A stretch of 64,000 nucleotides of DNA from Planctomycetota bacterium (lineage in GTDB: Bacteria; Planctomycetota; Planctomycetia; Planctomycetales; Planctomycetaceae), in NCBI GenBank assembly GCA_030836185.1, contig JAURQH010000039.1, positions 62,001 through 126,000 on the forward strand, in the 5' to 3' direction. This document shows positions 53,395 through 64,000 of the stretch, piece by piece (position 1 is the first letter of the stretch; each line of letters begins with the position of its first letter). The notes beneath the pieces are model-generated. The model did not search any database and had not been told where the DNA came from. It worked only from the letters and a program-made list of their open reading frames with translations. Both the position numbers and the translations under genes were made by a program.

Positions 53395-54777
53395 ATGGAA
53401 CTCGACTTTCGCAAAGACCCAGAGGTTCTCAGTCGAATTGTGGATGAAATGGCCGATGGTGTGTTCACCGTCGATGCCCGAGGTCAATTTGTCGCTTGGA
53501 GTCAGGGGGCCGAACGAATCACCGGATATTCTCCAGAAGACATCGTCGGACGGCCGTGCAACATTCTTGAAGGTCCGAACTGTAAAGGCTTCGCCAAGAT
53601 TCACGACTTGCTGGCGATGCCTCCCGATGATGTCCCCGGTATTTGCAATCAGGAATGTAAGGTCCAGGCGAAGGACGGACGGGAAATTTATATTCACGGT
53701 AATTTGCGATTGTTGACTGACACCCAGAAACAAGTCATTGGCGCCGTCGGCACATTCAAGGATATGACCTCATTTCTGCTCACGAACGAGCGGATCACAT
53801 TACTCGAGGAACAAACGCGAGACCGTAGCGCTTTCGATCGGATGATCGGGAAAAGTGCCGTGATGCAGGAAGTCTTTCGGCGATTGCGATTGGCCGCACA
53901 AAGTGAGGTGACTGTCTTTGTCAGTGGTGAATCGGGAACTGGTAAAGAACTCGCCGCACGAGCAATCCATGCATTGAGTGATCGCAACGATCATCCATTT
54001 ATTGCGATTAATTGCTCAGCGATTCCCGAGACGCTTCTCGAAAGTGAATTGTTCGGACATGTCAAAGGTTCCTTCACAGGAGCCGTACGCGATAAATCAG
54101 GAATGATCCAGACTGCTAACGGAGGAACTCTATTTCTCGACGAGATAGGTGATCTCTCCCCACTGATTCAATTGAAATTGTTACGAGTCATTCAGGAACG
54201 CGAAGTCCGTCGTGTCGGCGACGAGAAACCAGAACATGTCGATGTTCGGCTACTGACTGCTACCAATCGTGATTTGAAGAGTCTCGTTGAAGAAGGTCAG
54301 TTCAGAGAAGACTTCTATTATCGTATTCATGTTTTTGAGATTCATCTACCAGCCATTCGTGAGCGACGCGAAGACATCCCCTTACTGATCGAATTTTTCT
54401 TAACCGAGCTTTCCGACGAGCTTGGGAAAAAGGTGACGGGGATCGCCCGTGATGCCCTCCAACTCATGATGGGATACACCTGGCCGGGCAACGTGAGAGA
54501 ATTGCGAAATGCGCTCGAGCATGCCTTTGTGACAGTGAATGGAGAGACAATTACCTTGTTGGATCTTCCTCCCGAATTGCGAGAAGAGAACCGTAATCAT
54601 TCCGGGGCTCACAATTCGGTCCCAAAAATATTGAGCGATGACGAGAATGCCGAAAAAGCTGAAATTGTTCGAGCATTACAACAGACTGAGGGCAACCGAA
54701 CACAAGCTGCGAAGCTGCTGGAAACCAGCCGAGTGACGCTCTGGAAGAAGATCAAGAAGTATGGCCTGAGCGACTGA
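53395..54777 (+). CDS. PAS-type sigma-54-dependent activator of the sulfane-sulfur operon
   Basis: A 460-residue enhancer-binding protein with an N-terminal PAS domain (about residues 10-128), an AAA+ domain (about 145-390) and a Fis-type HTH (about 420-460, EGNRTQAAKLLETSRVTLWKKIKKYGL). Walker A is GESGTGKE (178-185), Walker B is LFLDEIGDL, and the sigma-54 loop reads GSFTGA (225-230) in place of GAFTGA. The PAS domain has four Cys at 55, 63, 84 and 88. This recalls the sulfane-sulfur sensor FisR, which uses Cys residues to sense polysulfide and activates persulfide dioxygenase genes. The next gene is a persulfide dioxygenase with a -24/-12 promoter. The sulfur-sensing role is inferred from this. 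Confidence 0.9.
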   Translation: MELDFRKDPEVLSRIVDEMADGVFTVDARGQFVAWSQGAERITGYSPEDIVGRPCNILEGPNCKGFAKIHDLLAMPPDDVPGICNQECKVQAKDGREIYIHGNLRLLTDTQKQVIGAVGTFKDMTSFLLTNERITLLEEQTRDRSAFDRMIGKSAVMQEVFRRLRLAAQSEVTVFVSGESGTGKELAARAIHALSDRNDHPFIAINCSAIPETLLESELFGHVKGSFTGAVRDKSGMIQTANGGTLFLDEIGDLSPLIQLKLLRVIQEREVRRVGDEKPEHVDVRLLTATNRDLKSLVEEGQFREDFYYRIHVFEIHLPAIRERREDIPLLIEFFLTELSDELGKKVTGIARDALQLMMGYTWPGNVRELRNALEHAFVTVNGETITLLDLPPELREENRNHSGAHNSVPKILSDDENAEKAEIVRALQQTEGNRTQAAKLLETSRVTLWKKIKKYGLSD

Positions 54778-54982: not shown

Positions 54983-56383
54983 ATGCAACTCAAACAATAT
55001 TATCTTGGCTGTCTCGCTCACGCTTCGTATTTGATCGGCGATGAAAAATCGAAAACTGCCGCAGTTGTTGATCCGCAACGTGACATCGCGCAGTACCTGA
55101 AAGATGCGGAAGCCCACGGCTGGACGATCAAACATGTCCTTCTCACACACTTTCACGCCGACTTTCTGGCTGGTCATATTGAATTGCGTGATCGCACTGG
55201 AGCCAATATTTACCTCGGAGCCAAAGCTGAGGCGGAGTACGAATTTACGCCACTGAAAGAAGGCGATGTGATTGAATATGGCGATGTTCGCCTCAAGACA
55301 TTGGAGACTCCGGGGCACACTCCCGAAGGAGTTTCTCTATTAGTCTACGACCTGGAATCGAGTGATCAGAATCCTTATGCGGTGCTCACCGGCGATACAC
55401 TGTTTATTGGTGATGTCGGACGCCCCGATTTGCTCGCTTCCATCGGTTTTACGGCTGATGAGTTGGCTGAGATGCTCTATGACTCGCTCACACAGAAACT
55501 GATCAAATTGCCAGATGACACACTGGTTTATCCCGCTCATGGGGCAGGATCTTTGTGTGGTAAAAACCTAAGCGACGAAACCGTCTCGACAATTGGCGAA
55601 CAGAAGAAATACAACTATGCCCTCCAACCGATGAGCAAAGAGGAGTTCATGGACATCGTACGGGCCGATCAACCAGATGCTCCCGAATATTTTGTCTACG
55701 ATGCGATTAAAAATCGCGAAGAACGAGTCTCACTCGAAGAGAGCATGAAGCGATCAATGGTTGCTCTCGGTCTCGAAGATGTATTGCGATTGAGAAATCA
55801 AGGTGCTCAGGTTGTCGATGTTAGAGAAGGAATTGATTTTGACGCGGGCCATCTCAGTGGAGTCCTCAATGTTGGTTTGCAGGGTAAATATGCCACTTGG
55901 GCAGGGTCGCTACTGAGTCACGATGAACCCATTGTTGTGATCGCAGAGGAAGGCGGAGAAGAAGAAGCGATTATGCGGCTGGGACGTATCGGATTCGATA
56001 ATGTTGTTGGTTATCTCGGAGGAGGTGTGACCGCATTGGATGGGCGCCCCGAACTGACTCAATCGGTCGAACGAATTACGGCAACTGCACTCCAGGAAAA
56101 ACTGGAAGCGGAAGAGAAAATCACGATTCTCGATGTCCGTTCACCACAGGAGCGAGAATCAGGTACGATCGAAAACAGTATTAGCGTTCCTCTCAATCAT
56201 TTGGCAGAACGGATCTCGGAAGTTCCCCAAAGCCATTCTGTGGTCGTGCATTGTGCCGGTGGATATCGATCGGCAATTGCCATCAGTATTCTACAACAGC
56301 ACGGATACGAAAACGTCTTGGACTTAGTTGGGGGCTTCAAGGCATGGAGAGCATCAAATCTTCAAACACAAACTCCTGCCTGA
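54983..56383 (+). CDS. Persulfide dioxygenase (ETHE1-type MBL fold) fused to two rhodanese domains
   Basis: The first 250 residues are a metallo-beta-lactamase fold of the persulfide dioxygenase group that oxidises glutathione persulfide to sulfite. Metal ligands are visible as HFHAD (His56, His58, Asp60), a later TPGHTPEG His and TGDTLFIGDVGRPDL Asp. Two rhodanese domains follow (about 270-355 and 370-460). The first has IAEEGGEEEA where the active-site Cys loop should be, so it is inactive. The second has VHCAGGYRSA with an active Cys. AAGGAG and GGAG lie upstream of the ATG. It is the first gene of a sigma-54 operon and should handle sulfane sulfur in the cytosol. Confidence 0.92.
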   Translation: MQLKQYYLGCLAHASYLIGDEKSKTAAVVDPQRDIAQYLKDAEAHGWTIKHVLLTHFHADFLAGHIELRDRTGANIYLGAKAEAEYEFTPLKEGDVIEYGDVRLKTLETPGHTPEGVSLLVYDLESSDQNPYAVLTGDTLFIGDVGRPDLLASIGFTADELAEMLYDSLTQKLIKLPDDTLVYPAHGAGSLCGKNLSDETVSTIGEQKKYNYALQPMSKEEFMDIVRADQPDAPEYFVYDAIKNREERVSLEESMKRSMVALGLEDVLRLRNQGAQVVDVREGIDFDAGHLSGVLNVGLQGKYATWAGSLLSHDEPIVVIAEEGGEEEAIMRLGRIGFDNVVGYLGGGVTALDGRPELTQSVERITATALQEKLEAEEKITILDVRSPQERESGTIENSISVPLNHLAERISEVPQSHSVVVHCAGGYRSAIAISILQQHGYENVLDLVGGFKAWRASNLQTQTPA

Positions 56384-56450
56384 AACTGTAGCAGGCAATA
56401 TTCCACATCATTCAGAATCTCTGGTTCCAAAAATAATTGAGGAGAACATT

Positions 56451-57008
56451 ATGTCGACGATCACTCAAACAACCATTTCACCCCGTGATCTTCAAGAAAA
56501 ACATGAGTCTGGCGAATCGGTCAAACTGATCGATGTTCGCACGCCGGTTGAGTTTCGGGAAACACATGTTGAATTTGCGTCCAACGAGCCTCTCGACAAA
56601 CTTGATCCGTCCGCCGTTATGGAGCGCCACGACGCTGGTGACGATCCTTTGTATGTCATGTGTCGTTCGGGCAATCGTGCTCAGCAGGCCATAGATCAAT
56701 TCCACAAAGCGGGTTACGAAAATGTGATCAATGTGGAAGGTGGAATGCAGCAATGGGAAGCAGAGGGGCAACCAGCGATTCATGGGAAGAAAGCGATTTC
56801 GCTGGAACGACAAGTTCGCATTGTGGCGGGATCTATCGTTTTTGTGGGTGCGATGCTCGGCTATTTTGTGGATCCTGCGTGGGTGTTTCTCTCTGCGTTT
56901 GTTGGAGCCGGGTTATTCTTTGCCGGTGTTTCTGACACGTGCGGCATGGGCATGATGCTGGCTAAAATGCCTTGGAATCAGGTCAGCCCGAGTTGCAACC
57001 CCAAGTGA
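56451..57008 (+). CDS. Rhodanese with C-terminal membrane domain (YgaP-like, DUF2892)
   Basis: A 185-residue protein with a rhodanese domain (residues 1-110, active-site loop MCRSGNRA). A C-terminal part follows (about 120-180) with two helices (IVAGSIVFVGAMLGYFVD and FLSAFVGAGLFFAGVSDTCG), which match YgaP-like DUF2892 proteins. I chose the ATG at 56451 with GAGGAG before it; the earlier frame start at 56328 lies within the previous gene. It follows the persulfide dioxygenase by 67 bases. It probably moves sulfane sulfur at the membrane. Confidence 0.93.
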   Translation: MSTITQTTISPRDLQEKHESGESVKLIDVRTPVEFRETHVEFASNEPLDKLDPSAVMERHDAGDDPLYVMCRSGNRAQQAIDQFHKAGYENVINVEGGMQQWEAEGQPAIHGKKAISLERQVRIVAGSIVFVGAMLGYFVDPAWVFLSAFVGAGLFFAGVSDTCGMGMMLAKMPWNQVSPSCNPK

Positions 57009-57938: not shown

Positions 57939-58814
57939 TCAACCCAAATTCAACCAATCTTTGAGCAGGAAATTCATACGTCCGATGAGCAGCGAATATC
58001 GGCTCATCACGGTGAGCGCAAAACCGACACCAAAAGTGATCATCAACAGATAGATCCCCACACGAGAAATCTTGCCGACAACCCCCGTATGCTCTACTGA
58101 GAAAAAGAAGTAGGTCAAACAGCAAAGCGTCCCCAAGACCATTGTGGAATTCCACAATGAAGTCTTGAGGTCGAACGCCCCATCTTCGGCAAAGACAATG
58201 AGCGGCAGAATGGTCGATTTGATCTGCACGACAAAATCGGCTTCAAAGTGGCTGACCAGTCGCAAGCCTGCAAAGACGGCAATAAAGAACGCCAAAGGCC
58301 AACGCGAGATCCAGCCTCCCGCTGGCATTAACCGCCAGAGGAACATGATTCCCATGGCGAGTGGTATCAGCATCAGCCATTCTGGTTCAGTGCGATCATC
58401 ACCCGGCATAAAGGTATTCTGTGAAAACTGTGGCGCAAGCTGAGCCACAAAAATACCCATAAACGCCGACCAAAATCCCACGACCATCGCATACGCCGCA
58501 GACGATCCTACGAAAATTGATTCGGCAACTTTGTAGACGACATTATCGCCGAATAGAAAAGAGAAGATTGCCAACGTAAATAGCGCGGACAACCAGATGC
58601 CCAGAGTCCGCGGCCAACTGATTTCAACGCCTGGATTACTACTCTCCACACTTGGGACTTTACTCCAGGTTGTGAAACTTTTTCCGCTATCAGCATCGGC
58701 AACGATCTTCGGAGCAACGTAGACAGCACCAGCTTGATATGAAACGGCTCGCCAAGAAAGATACACTCCGGCAAGCAACATAACGACGACCCAGATGACA
58801 TTCGATTGTTTCAT
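57939..58814 (-). CDS. Polytopic membrane protein, last gene of the six-gene operon
   Basis: A 291-residue protein with about six to seven hydrophobic segments. The N-terminal helix (SNVIWVVVMLLAGVYLSWRAV) is followed by a soluble loop (about 30-60) and then helices at about 63-85, 90-130, 150-165, 180-200, 225-245 and 252-272. No domain is recognised. I chose the start at 58814, which overlaps the stop of the preceding gene as ATGA, so translation is coupled. The function is unknown. Confidence 0.8.
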   Translation of the reverse strand: MKQSNVIWVVVMLLAGVYLSWRAVSYQAGAVYVAPKIVADADSGKSFTTWSKVPSVESSNPGVEISWPRTLGIWLSALFTLAIFSFLFGDNVVYKVAESIFVGSSAAYAMVVGFWSAFMGIFVAQLAPQFSQNTFMPGDDRTEPEWLMLIPLAMGIMFLWRLMPAGGWISRWPLAFFIAVFAGLRLVSHFEADFVVQIKSTILPLIVFAEDGAFDLKTSLWNSTMVLGTLCCLTYFFFSVEHTGVVGKISRVGIYLLMITFGVGFALTVMSRYSLLIGRMNFLLKDWLNLG

Positions 58815-59677
58815 GATTGATCTCGCCTTCCACCGGTCTGCCACATCACGACATTCCCTAAAATGATGATGGCAATCAGCATGAAGTGAGCCACCTCTTG
58901 GCTAGTCATAAAGACATTGGCCATGTTGGAATTGGGACGTTTTTCAATCTCGGGGTATTTCTCAAACATCAGTTTTTCGTATTCGGCAGCAGGCTTGATG
59001 CCCGCAATCATCCCGATCATCTGGTTGGGGATGTAAGGATAGAGGGTCGAAGCCTGTACTCCCGTTGTTCCTCCCACAATCTCAATACTATCAAACGGGG
59101 TTGCCGCATATTGGACCCATTGTTTCAATCCCGGATCACCCGCGCTCACATTCACAATTAAGGGGAATTGCTTAATACTGTCGATGCCAGCCATCATCGG
59201 TATTTTGGCGACCGGAGTTCCCTGCTGATCAGAACCATAGAGTTTCGGTAGATCGCTAGTAATCAGCTTGATGACTCCTTCGTACCCCGGTCGATAGCCA
59301 AGATTGACATAATCTTCGCCATACACATATTCGGGATACTCCTTCTTCAACGTGGCGACTTGCCGCTGAATCATCGCGACGCCTGTCGGCCAGATGGTCA
59401 GGAAATAGAGTTTATGCTTCTTTTGTGCGGCGTGTCTGATGAACGCGTCTGCCATGGGCTGCAACTCTCCTTCCGCGGAAGGGTCATAATCGAGCGGCAT
59501 GAGAATTTTTGTTCCAGACGGAAGTTCATCGATGGCATTGAACACGTTTTCCACCATAGGGGTGACTTTTTGAGGTAAGACAATTCCTGTCAAAAGTGGA
59601 ATACTGATCGCCAGAAATGTGAGCGCAAAGAGCCAGCGACGGTCGAGATTCGCAAGGCTGTTCCAGAATTTATCCAT
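58811..59677 (-). CDS. Membrane-anchored extracytoplasmic protein of the six-gene operon
   Basis: A 288-residue protein with one helix near each end (about 14-35 and 263-283). The central domain has a mixed alpha/beta pattern, with LPSGTKILMPLDYDPSAEGE, HKLYFLTIWPTG and GTTGVQASTLYPYIPNQMIGMIAG. It probably lies outside the cytoplasm. GGGAGGTG lies about 10 bases before the ATG at 59677. The stop of the preceding gene is one base upstream, and the next start overlaps its own stop. No known domain is recognised. Confidence 0.8.
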   Translation of the reverse strand: MDKFWNSLANLDRRWLFALTFLAISIPLLTGIVLPQKVTPMVENVFNAIDELPSGTKILMPLDYDPSAEGELQPMADAFIRHAAQKKHKLYFLTIWPTGVAMIQRQVATLKKEYPEYVYGEDYVNLGYRPGYEGVIKLITSDLPKLYGSDQQGTPVAKIPMMAGIDSIKQFPLIVNVSAGDPGLKQWVQYAATPFDSIEIVGGTTGVQASTLYPYIPNQMIGMIAGIKPAAEYEKLMFEKYPEIEKRPNSNMANVFMTSQEVAHFMLIAIIILGNVVMWQTGGRRDQS

Positions 59678-59678
59678 A

Positions 59679-60386
59679 TCAATCACCTCCCAAGTATGAC
59701 TGATCGACACCCATCAGAACTTTTAACGATGTTGAGACAACTCCCAACGCAATCCCGATCATGACGGCTCTCGTCCCCAAGGTATTAAAGAGGTTGACGA
59801 GTACCCCTCGGATCGTATCAATTTTGAAAATAGCCCAGGTGCTCTCTTCAGGAATCAGATCAGACAGCATTGGTCCTGATGACGTTTGTGACACCAAAAC
59901 GACAAGTGCGGTCAACAACAGTAGAGATGCCTCGACATTATTGGCACGGAATGCACGAAACGCGGCCGAAGAAATATAGAAGGCCAATGTGGCAAACATG
60001 GTAGACGCTAACGGGACATAAACATAGTTGAAAATCCACCAGAAGGCACTCCCCTCAGCTTCGAAACTCCCCGACCAAGCATATCCGAGATACTGTTCGT
60101 TGGGAGGGACTCCCAGCTTTCCGATGCCGCAAATTAAAGTAATCCAGAAGGCCAACAATGTGATCGCCGCATATCCCCACCCCGCTTTTCGCTCGCTGAT
60201 TTTCTTCAAATTATTGAGGTTCAGGTTTCCAGCACCCAAGACAAAGGCAAACACCGCCAAGATGTCGAACCACATAACGACTTCAGTTTCCCAAGATTGT
60301 ATGGGAGGGGAAAATTTGGCGAGAATCAGTACGATGCCGACGATGCTGGCAATGATTAAAGGGACGGTTCTTTTCAACATATTCAA
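59679..60386 (-). CDS. Membrane protein of the six-gene operon
   Basis: A 235-residue protein with about six hydrophobic segments (for example LKRTVPLIIASIVGIVLIL, MWFDILAVFAFVLGAG, AAITLLAFWITLICGIG and SLLLLTALVVLVSQTSS). The start at 60386 directly abuts the stop of the upstream gene. No domain is recognised. The later part, NLFNTLGTRAVMIGIALGVVSTSLKVL, probably holds the last helix. Confidence 0.8.
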   Translation of the reverse strand: MNMLKRTVPLIIASIVGIVLILAKFSPPIQSWETEVVMWFDILAVFAFVLGAGNLNLNNLKKISERKAGWGYAAITLLAFWITLICGIGKLGVPPNEQYLGYAWSGSFEAEGSAFWWIFNYVYVPLASTMFATLAFYISSAAFRAFRANNVEASLLLLTALVVLVSQTSSGPMLSDLIPEESTWAIFKIDTIRGVLVNLFNTLGTRAVMIGIALGVVSTSLKVLMGVDQSYLGGD

Positions 60387-61640
60387 TCAGGTTCCCAACA
60401 AACTCTCGGTCATAAAGGAGATGGCATCTTGTAATGGTCCCGTTTTCTCGCCCGACGCGCCGCGATGGACAAATTGTGAAACGGTCATCAGGAGGGCACC
60501 TACAATCAGAAACAGGCCCGCGATAAATTTCCCGACATCCTGTCCTTTCAAAGAACCGAGCTGCTGAGGTTCTCCCGAGAGGTAAGCAGATGCCGCGAAA
60601 AACTCTTCACCAATCAGCACGTAATCGCAAGCCGCCACAAAGAACGGCAACTGTGAGGGCATCGCCGTGCCGGCAATTTGAATGGCACCGACTGTGTTGG
60701 CAGTTTCCGCGAAGATCAACGATTCGGCATAAAACGCCCCCATGTAGAAACAGGCAGCCGGTTTTTCACGTACCATCTTGCCCGTCACTGCCGCCACAAA
60801 ACCAAACTGCTCGTCGGTGACATAGTAGATGTTGTCAGGATTGTAGAGGTCTGGTCGACCGGCTGACGTGTACGCTCCGTCAACCGTTTCGCGAGCCACC
60901 GTCATCACGAGTGACCGGGTTGTCGGGACATCAAGCCCCGCATCGTATTCGGCGGTTAATTCCGCAACACGATTTAAGACAATGAGACCTGCCACGGTTT
61001 GAATGTCGTTGATGTCCTGAATTCCGGGGATGAACAAGCAATCTCGCCCCATTTCGGTGGCACGCCCGACGGCTTCTTCAATCGCTTCCAGACCGGCGAT
61101 TTTACGAACTTTGAGTTGCTTGCCAGCTTTGGCAGCCTCGATGAAGTAGACCACCGAACCGCAGACAACCAGCATGAAAAAACCAAAATAGATTTTTGAG
61201 CGATCTACCCATTGCCGAACAGGAGTGGCCGCAGAAATTCCTGTCGCTGTGGAGAAACTCCCATCCGCACCAATCGCCTTGACTCGATAGGAATATTCTT
61301 GACGTTCGAGATCGTCCGCTTTGAACTCCGAAACTCCGGCATCGACTTTTCCCGCTTCTGCGAACTCTTTCTGATTGCCGCTTTTGACTTCAATGAGATA
61401 GCCGACAACGGGGTTGTTTAACGTAGCCGGTGGTTCATTTGCGGACTCTTCTTTGACATCTTCCTTTGTCTCAGTGTTTGGGTCATCTGCCGAAAGGGTC
61501 CATGTCAGTCTTAATTCTTCACCCTTATCATTTTCAACATCAAAAACATTGAGATTTGAGGGAGGGGCCACCTCTTGTGCGGAGACATCGCTAGTCCCGG
61601 CAACAAGCAGTAAACAGATTATGATTGTGAAGCTTCGCAT
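60387..61640 (-). CDS. FN3-domain membrane protein with DUF6754-like C-terminal domain
   Basis: A 417-residue protein with a signal peptide (about 1-21) and a fibronectin type III-like domain (about 24-142, PPSNLNVFDVENDKGEELRLTW ... YSYRVKAIGADGSFS). A membrane helix (about 152-170) follows, then a cytosolic domain (about 180-375) with GRDCLFIPGIQDINDIQTVAGL and EQFGFVAAVTGKMVREKPAACF blocks. A last helix is at about 375-392. I recall the latter domain as DUF6754, but I cannot confirm it. It ends one base before the next gene and begins 5 bases after the previous one. Confidence 0.75.
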   Translation of the reverse strand: MRSFTIIICLLLVAGTSDVSAQEVAPPSNLNVFDVENDKGEELRLTWTLSADDPNTETKEDVKEESANEPPATLNNPVVGYLIEVKSGNQKEFAEAGKVDAGVSEFKADDLERQEYSYRVKAIGADGSFSTATGISAATPVRQWVDRSKIYFGFFMLVVCGSVVYFIEAAKAGKQLKVRKIAGLEAIEEAVGRATEMGRDCLFIPGIQDINDIQTVAGLIVLNRVAELTAEYDAGLDVPTTRSLVMTVARETVDGAYTSAGRPDLYNPDNIYYVTDEQFGFVAAVTGKMVREKPAACFYMGAFYAESLIFAETANTVGAIQIAGTAMPSQLPFFVAACDYVLIGEEFFAASAYLSGEPQQLGSLKGQDVGKFIAGLFLIVGALLMTVSQFVHRGASGEKTGPLQDAISFMTESLLGT

Positions 61641-61645
61641 GCCGT

Positions 61646-62773
61646 TTACTCCTCAATCAGTTCGACATTGGCCCGTGGAACTGTCAAATGCCGACCGTCA
61701 TCTAAATTGACAGTCAGCACACGTGCTTTCGAGCCTGAATCGAGCACTGTGAGTTCGTGAGGCAGGCTGTCAACTTTTCCCAGCAAACCGAAATAGGGGT
61801 CGCGAATCATCCGCACTCGGGCTCCCGGAACGAGTAATCCGTGTTCTGAGGATGTCTCTTCGTCGGGAGTTACTTCTTCGGGATTGAGCGGAATCAGGAT
61901 TTCCGGTCTCAGCACGCCAGCACGAATTTGTGTGGCGCCATTCACAGACGCTTCTCGAGTAGCAAAATGTTTGAAGAGTTCAAAGGTTCTCGCCGCCATG
62001 GCGATGTCGCCGAAGCCTTCCGTGATGACCAGCGAGGTACCGATTTTTTCGGAGCCAGTAATGGCGACGCCGAGATCTTCTCCCAGAATTTCTTTGAGGT
62101 CCTGATCGTCCATGCCGCCCGAGATGACGGCTGCTGTGCCGACTTCAATGGCCCGTTTGATGGCTTCTCCCGTCATGCGGGCACCACCGATGACGATTTG
62201 TCCTTGCATGTCCTGGTGGATTAAATCGGGTGTGAGTGTGATCTCGGGAGATTGGCAGGCGAGACGAATTGTTCCAAAGGCTTCGCCACCGATACCAAGA
62301 ATTCCCTGTACCATCGCGACATCGGCTTCGACATCGACTCCCTGTTCGGGGATGACTTCCACAACTTCGCCCGCCAGGTACGCTACGACTTCAATCGGTT
62401 CTGGTGCCCCTCGCAGAATGACTTGGCCCGTGATTTGCGAGATCGTCTCCACCGTCCCGTTATCGGGGCTAAACGCCTCTTTCTGGAACATTCCGAAGAT
62501 GCCGGGTGAGCGGGCGATTAACTCGGCCCTGCTAATCTCATCGCCCTGTTTTTTCAGCATACATCGCGGCACGTCGGTGGCCGCTACTCCCAATTGGTTG
62601 GAGAGATTGAAGGGGATCACCGGGCCGGGCAGGAATGTTCGGGCGACGACATCTTGAGCAGAGACACGATCACCCACCGAGACGACAACCTCTCCCGAGA
62701 TCGGTAGCATGCGCCTGGTGCGATGTTTCACGCAGCGGCTGACTCGTAATCTTGGTGTGTAGGCGTGTGCCAT
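61646..62773 (-). CDS. Protein with sandwich-barrel and KOW-like domains of the six-gene operon
   Basis: A 375-residue soluble protein. The N-terminal part (about 20-165) has repeated short beta segments, such as ISGEVVVSVGDRVSAQDVVAR and GEVVEVIPEQGVDVEA, that resemble biotinyl-lipoyl or barrel-sandwich folds. A central part (about 170-300) includes GMDDQDLKEILGEDLGVAITGSE. The C-terminal 60 residues look like a KOW domain (PGARVRMIRDPYFGLLGKVDSLP ... VNLDDGRHLTVPRANVELI). There is no signal or membrane segment. It lies 22 bases after the GlmL-like gene. No function is known. Confidence 0.7.
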   Translation of the reverse strand: MAHAYTPRLRVSRCVKHRTRRMLPISGEVVVSVGDRVSAQDVVARTFLPGPVIPFNLSNQLGVAATDVPRCMLKKQGDEISRAELIARSPGIFGMFQKEAFSPDNGTVETISQITGQVILRGAPEPIEVVAYLAGEVVEVIPEQGVDVEADVAMVQGILGIGGEAFGTIRLACQSPEITLTPDLIHQDMQGQIVIGGARMTGEAIKRAIEVGTAAVISGGMDDQDLKEILGEDLGVAITGSEKIGTSLVITEGFGDIAMAARTFELFKHFATREASVNGATQIRAGVLRPEILIPLNPEEVTPDEETSSEHGLLVPGARVRMIRDPYFGLLGKVDSLPHELTVLDSGSKARVLTVNLDDGRHLTVPRANVELIEE

Positions 62774-62795
62774 TGTTCTCGCAAACTCGTATCAA

Positions 62796-64000
62796 TTATT
62801 CGTAGACATTTAACTCGGCAACCCAATCCCCAATTTGCTCTCGGCGTTCCGATTCTTCTCCTTCGATCACCAAAGGGCGTCCGCGGGCATCAAGCACGAT
62901 TCCGACCGTACCGCCTCGGACCGTTCCTTTCACTGGTTTGCCGGGACCATCTCCCAAATCAAATCCGCGTTCGGGATCGATGACAATCTCTGCGGTGTGA
63001 TTGACTGGTAATGGTAACAACCGCATCTCACCAACCTTTAACTCTCCCGTTTCGTGAATCCCATCCCCTTTGATTTGATATCGAAAGCAGGGCTTGCCAC
63101 GTTTCCCGCGACCGCGCGGAGCCACACATGTTCCCAAATAGACCAGGCAATCTTTCTCGAAGACTTCCAACGCCGCTTGCGGATGAACTGACGCCAAGAC
63201 TCCAAGATGAGGCATCATGAAGATGCTGTCTTTTGCCAGGCTAGTAATCCCTTCTGGTTCAAAGGCATCAATCATCATCGCAACGGTCTGCTCCATTTGC
63301 GGAGCATGCGAAAGAACGCCTCCCGAACCGACAATTAAATCGAGGACCATGTTATCGACGATGGTCGCTCCCCCGGTTGATTGACTGAAGGTATCTCCCA
63401 CGGTTCGCTGTTGTTGGACTCCTTGTAAGGTCGTCGCGAATTCTTTGTGCTGGATGTAGGCCAATCGCAACGCTTCCCGAGCGACAGCTTGCTCAAAGAT
63501 GAGTGCTTCTCGTGTTTGGGGAATCGTGGTCGGGCGAATCATTTTATTTTTGACCCGATTTCGTAACTCACGCTCGTCCATATCAATGTGGACCCAACGG
63601 AGAACATTATCCATGCCGGCTTCTGCACAGACGTTAGAGATCGAGTAACTCATGCCGAGATTCGCAGAGACGGTACGGTTGAATTCTGTGCCAAAGACAC
63701 TGAAAACATCCGTTGTCGCACCACCGATATCAACACCGACCGCGTTGATGCCTTGCCGTTCGGCGATGGTTTGCAGAATGTTTCCCACTGCTCCCGGTGT
63801 CGGCATGATGGGGGCGTCGGCCCATTCAATCAGGCGTGGGTACCCCGGAGCGTGTGCCATGACATGTTCGAGAAACAGATCATGAATTCGGTCTCGTGCC
63901 GGTCCCAGGTTTTCTTGTTCGAGCACCGGACGAACATTGGGGATGACGGCCAGTTCGATGTTCTCACCGGCAAATGTATCACGGACGGCATCAGCCGCAT
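62796..64000 (-). CDS. GlmL/MutL-type ASKHA-fold protein, N-terminus beyond the window
   Basis: The frame is open past the right edge; at least 401 residues are visible. The block GVDIGGATTDVFSV is the second phosphate loop of an ASKHA ATPase fold, as in glutamate mutase accessory protein GlmL (MutL family). LIVGSGGVLSHAPQ is the adenosine motif. The tail (FRYQIKGDGIHETGELKVGEMRLLPLPV and VKGTVRGGTVGIVLDARGRP) is a beta-rich part typical of this family. Glutamate mutase genes (glmS/glmE) are not nearby. The neighbours are membrane proteins, so the role here may differ from mutase repair. It is the first visible gene of a six-gene operon. Confidence 0.85.
   Translation of the reverse strand, partial: AADAVRDTFAGENIELAVIPNVRPVLEQENLGPARDRIHDLFLEHVMAHAPGYPRLIEWADAPIMPTPGAVGNILQTIAERQGINAVGVDIGGATTDVFSVFGTEFNRTVSANLGMSYSISNVCAEAGMDNVLRWVHIDMDERELRNRVKNKMIRPTTIPQTREALIFEQAVAREALRLAYIQHKEFATTLQGVQQQRTVGDTFSQSTGGATIVDNMVLDLIVGSGGVLSHAPQMEQTVAMMIDAFEPEGITSLAKDSIFMMPHLGVLASVHPQAALEVFEKDCLVYLGTCVAPRGRGKRGKPCFRYQIKGDGIHETGELKVGEMRLLPLPVNHTAEIVIDPERGFDLGDGPGKPVKGTVRGGTVGIVLDARGRPLVIEGEESERREQIGDWVAELNVYE

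Follow-up and report, generated by a model that had tools for sequence, protein, structure and literature searches.

Named members of the MutL Pfam family are accessory proteins of mutases, as is GlmL/MutL of the B12-dependent glutamate mutase. In PilM-PilN-PilO-PilP and other ASKHA-membrane platforms, an actin-fold cytosolic protein is encoded in an operon with membrane proteins. Another arrangement is that of the ECF transporters, for which it has been proposed that different S components dock on one ECF module (PMC7755397).

The operon described here, A-B-C-D-E-F-G, bears some likeness to each of these. Protein B resembles GlmL/MutL in its family, in its ASKHA motifs and in an identity of ~34% to the single mutase-linked MutL in our tree. 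It differs from them in a C-terminal extension of ~115 residues, in standing without mutase genes, in falling below all curated GlmL cut-offs and in its tie to membrane genes. Like PilM-PilN-PilO-PilP, the operon combines an actin-fold cytosolic protein with membrane proteins, but Pfam scans of A-G found no PilM-, PilN-, PilO- or PilP-type domain. The likeness to group II ECF transporters is a works-like analogy, one shared energiser with several membrane modules. However, neither an ABC ATPase (Pfam scans) nor an S or T component was found in A-G, and the shared energiser is read from copy number only. Protein C is like RnfC and NqrA in its barrel-sandwich domain, which matches Biotin_lipoyl equally well, and no other subunit is in common. 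Protein D is a full member of DUF6754 (PF20539; 8.5e-120, 399 bits against a cut-off of 27), a family itself without known function and named in no paper found in our literature search.

The operon and its conservation

The window is the whole stretch of 64,000 nucleotides that was analysed (G000:C15:62001-126000). A sequence-only reading had placed six closely spaced genes at 57939-64000. The list of open reading frames, which puts all six on the minus strand, and our reading of the junctions agree with those positions and spacings. The genes are the 3′ part of B (62796-64000), C (61646-62773), D (60387-61640), E (59679-60386), F (58811-59677, with its start set at an ATG conserved in homologues) and G (57939-58814). 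All six are present as claimed, but the operon is larger. A seventh gene, A, lies outside the window upstream of B and overlaps it by four bases, and B is cut by the window end: its start lies 610 bases past that point, for a full length of 604 codons. Gene A is an open reading frame of 150 amino acids, with ~119 from its likely ATG. Junction B|C is 22 bases and C|D is 5 bases. D and E abut if E starts at TTG and are 6 bases apart if it starts at the ATG that matches the homologues. A single base separates E from F, with GGAGGTGA upstream of F, and F and G share a 4-base ATGA overlap. The genes upstream of A are divergent and unrelated, encoding an excisionase-like and an OmpA-like protein as judged by eye. 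Promoter and terminator scans gave results no better than shuffles. Elsewhere in the window, the plus strand at 54983-57008 encodes a metallo-beta-lactamase/rhodanese-like protein and then a rhodanese with a membrane tail; a PAS-sigma54-type regulator at 53395-54777 adjoins this pair (all three named by eye).

The same gene order, whole or in part, was found in more than 100 loci, far beyond chance. These include Planctomycetota, where the sequence-only reading had proposed to look for it. The full A-B-C-D-E-F-G order is present in 26 loci, with many more partial ones. Eight or more labels of phylum rank are represented among all these loci: the titles of the records give Planctomycetota, Zixibacteria, Neomarinimicrobiota, Gemmatimonadota, Latescibacterota, Eisenbacteria, Cloacimonadota, Acidobacteria and others, and some MAG labels may be wrong. 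Within D-E-F-G, gaps are at most 60 bases in 91-98% of cases. Flanking genes are lineage-specific only (named by eye): fatty-acid genes in Phycisphaerae, a PPDK-like gene in Zixibacteria and an ftsY-like gene in Planctomycetaceae.

Several loci depart from the basic arrangement. In several Planctomycetaceae (L099, L100, L037, L039), C-D stands beside FtsY-like and rhamnulokinase-like genes, and the rest of the set is elsewhere. A gene for a two-TM protein, weakly matching bacterial-PH, lies directly upstream of A in ~24 loci (e.g. L081:5964-6404, L076:304-756, L104:5301-5756). It is absent beside the window's operon and is probably an eighth member of the set. At L076:5561-11908, a four-gene block is inserted between D and E; its protein starts look, by eye, like restriction-modification or defence.

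Co-inheritance was assessed in 149 genomes of the window's phylum, in which B, C, D, F and G were searched. D was found in 41 genomes, F in 42, G in 41, C in 38 and B, over its cut-off, in 42. Both D and F are present in 41 genomes, F only in 1 and neither in 107 (Fisher p about 5e-36, not corrected for phylogeny). All pairwise p values among the five genes are below 1e-22, likewise not corrected for relatedness. In four relatives of the same family the set is scattered: B, C-D, F and G occupy four separate places in G024 and G137, and B-C-D lies apart from F-G in G087 and G105. Scattering in relatives had been named in advance as evidence against a unit. It does occur, but every searched gene (B, C, D, F and G) is retained in all four genomes, which points to a shared function rather than mere neighbourhood.

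Outside the window's phylum, among genomes reached via named loci, MutL/B accompanies D in 16/17, also where the two are not adjacent. In the phylum of the Zixibacteria genome G149, D occurs in 98/98 genomes with a median of 5 copies (counted as matches), and MutL in 94/98, mostly as 1 copy. D is also found in 56 of 100 genomes of the phylum to which locus L076 belongs and in all 7 of the small phylum of L133. It was found in 0/14 control genomes and was not found on plasmids.

A single A-B-C can be accompanied by as many as three D-E-F-G copies in tandem. Across Zixibacteria, the trees separate the module types into clades of their own, and whichever of the four genes is taken, its closest relative in another genome was of the same type (43/43 cases). 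The window's own module groups with the second type. D-E-F-G is a co-inherited module, multiplied in tandem into three ancient types. That A-G form one conserved functional unit, passed on as such in many little-studied bacterial phyla, is well supported; recurrence of the order and co-inheritance agree on this with the single unit first proposed.

Predicted architecture of the encoded proteins

The part of B within the window matches Pfam MutL at 2.4e-69. The whole protein does so at 2.8e-130 (435.6 bits against a cut-off of 27), and the match spans the whole core. Conservation of the ASKHA motifs DCGSTTTK, DIGGATTD and SGGVLSH ranges from over 90% to 100%. With the cut-off passed and the phosphate and adenosine motifs conserved, B belongs to the MutL family and to the ASKHA fold. 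It does not reach the cut-offs of the NCBIfam models GlmL (233 against 475), Or-4 (215 against 600) and GlmL family (160.5 against 204). The tree places the B proteins together in a single clade (57 sequences, support 0.97). Glutamate mutase had been reported absent from the set. No mutase gene lies beside the operon, the window's own genome has no glutamate-mutase E gene, and a glmS/glmE-type gene beyond position 64000, flagged earlier as the finding that would make this an ordinary mutase locus, was looked for upstream of B and none was found. A glutamate-mutase locus in this genome is refuted.

Protein C has barrel-sandwich domains and, at its C-terminus, a KOW/SH3-like part; the domain in its middle is highly conserved (TEGFG, NGATQIRAG), and a biotinylation motif is absent from the protein. 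B and C are fused in loci L076, L079 and L082, and the occurrence of such fusions in some lineages is good evidence that the two work together. A second, divergent MutL-C family (B2-C2) was also observed, mostly as one fused protein of ~930-990 amino acids and with no D-E-F-G nearby. It is fused at L158:9563-12358, L160:6965-9808, L161, L162, L163, L164 and L157:11844-14825, and adjacent but unfused at L154:2001-5017 and L155:8391-11332. These paralogues suggest that B-C may do something soluble. In Zixibacteria-type loci, secreted-looking proteins are encoded between B and C (L108:5158-5931, L147:863-1612, L138:15759-16499).

Protein D starts with a signal-peptide-like N-terminus. Its structure model (pLDDT 91) shows an FN3 domain, a TM helix, a (beta-alpha)6 domain, which is the Rossmann-like DUF6754 domain, and a second TM helix. 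The FN3 domain is weak by Pfam and clear by fold (Z about 14), and matches to FN3 filled the fold search with the whole protein. The domain calls of the sequence-only reading are thus borne out for MutL in B, barrel-sandwich/KOW in C, and FN3 and DUF6754 in D. The model of F (pLDDT 95) has two TM helices flanking a (beta-alpha)6 domain that is likewise Rossmann-like. Charge bias in ~145 sequences places the D domain inside and the F domain outside, so that with the models the two Rossmann-like domains lie on opposite sides of the membrane, that of D in the cytosol and that of F extracytoplasmic. Their secondary structures follow the same order in the models. A profile comparison gave no support for homology, and we therefore leave it as a suggestion that the two domains may be homologous.

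The conserved residues of F are mostly near strand ends, as in a putative binding pocket; this is a reading of their positions in the model. A fold search with F returned generic Rossmann matches only. Among them, a TON_0340-like metal phosphatase reached Z 8.1 (157 aligned, rmsd 3.5), a score that unrelated Rossmann proteins equalled. That phosphatase has six metal-binding acidic residues (PMC5132392).

Protein E is a six-TM and G a six- to seven-TM membrane protein. Neither these two nor F and A have a confident Pfam family, and none is over cut-off in NCBIfam or PADLOC; the earlier description of E, F and G as membrane proteins without known domains is correct. A weak TMD0_ABC match was seen in 7/27 E proteins (best 2e-6). 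Sequence searches of the PDB with B, C, D, E, F and G returned nothing significant, and the PADLOC anti-phage defence models had no match among 8 proteins.

A proposed machine and the alternatives

A literature search returned no description of the gene set, and related searches were empty or off topic. The set therefore appears to be a genuine cellular machine that has yet to be characterised, in line with the earlier claim of an undescribed system. Our best reading draws on gene order, co-inheritance, module types, B-C fusions, motifs, and predicted folds and topology. It is that A-G may be a conserved ATP-driven system in which B-C, with A, acts on a membrane complex of D-E-F-G, probably a transporter. 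We regard this as quite possible and hold it tentatively. B and C would form a cytosolic ATPase-adaptor pair, helped by A. We infer that B binds and hydrolyses ATP and that B-C contacts D-E-F-G physically; C, through its barrel-sandwich domains, would hand the change on to the domain that D has in the cytosol. The membrane core of the predicted complex would consist of E and G, and the FN3 domain of D and the extracytoplasmic domain of F would engage a ligand or a partner in the envelope. A single B-C energiser would serve one to several such complexes. Transport of small molecules or envelope parts would, by analogy, be the most likely job, since one energiser per several membrane modules resembles the ECF transporters. 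Against this machine, none of the seven proteins can be linked to a transporter fold already known or to a function established by experiment, and Pfam scans of A-G found no ABC or other translocator domain over cut-off. The B2-C2 pair occurs without D-E-F-G, and a few D-bearing genomes, including G150, recorded as a chromosome, have no detectable B.

A helper role of B-C in assembly or repair is a serious rival to transport, although we judge it unlikely. B-C would then use ATP to assemble or reactivate D-E-F-G, as a chaperone or repair pair, and the membrane complex would itself work without ATP. ASKHA reactivases act in this way on B12 enzymes, and the mutase accessory role of the named MutL proteins fits the analogy. 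One B per roughly five D modules would suit a catalytic helper, as would the existence of B-C paralogues without membrane genes. However, no recognisable cofactor enzyme is present, the corrinoid motif DxHxxG is conserved in none of the seven families A-G, and B and D are gained and lost together.

Transmembrane sensing or signalling is improbable. F and the FN3 domain of D would sense the outside, and the DUF6754 domain and B-C would relay the signal inside. Rossmann-like domains on both sides of the membrane, with conserved residues mostly near strand ends, are consistent with such a relay. But the set contains neither kinase nor cyclase nor any regulator domain, no regulator gene recurs constantly beside it, and it is universal in one phylum at about five copies.

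In a further reading, C would be the RnfC/NqrA-like subunit of an ion- or electron-driven relative of Rnf/Nqr; we consider this very unlikely. C matches RnfC_N in 17/23 members and NQRA_N in 8/23, but Biotin_lipoyl matches it as often as RnfC_N does (16/23), which indicates that the match is to a generic fold, and Pfam found no other Rnf/Nqr subunit. An ordinary glutamate- or ornithine-mutase accessory locus can be dismissed with near certainty: B does match the MutL family, but it lies far below the GlmL and Or-4 cut-offs, and mutase E is above cut-off in just 3/149 genomes of the window's phylum, all 3 with MutL and without D.

MutL proteins in mutase-free genomes are likely mis-annotated as glutamate mutase accessory proteins, and four of the seven families (A, E, F and G) have no family name. 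Genes that one phylum carries universally and in several copies, and that are retained as a set even where they are dispersed, must have an important role. Somewhat doubtfully, we suggest that the set could represent a class of ATP-powered membrane machine that has not been described, where several paralogous four-subunit complexes would be driven by a MutL-type ASKHA protein via a barrel-sandwich adaptor, as a core function in phyla such as Zixibacteria. If so, MutL proteins would have an explicit use in genomes without any mutase, and ASKHA proteins that power membrane complexes outside the known platforms would add a kind of energy coupling.
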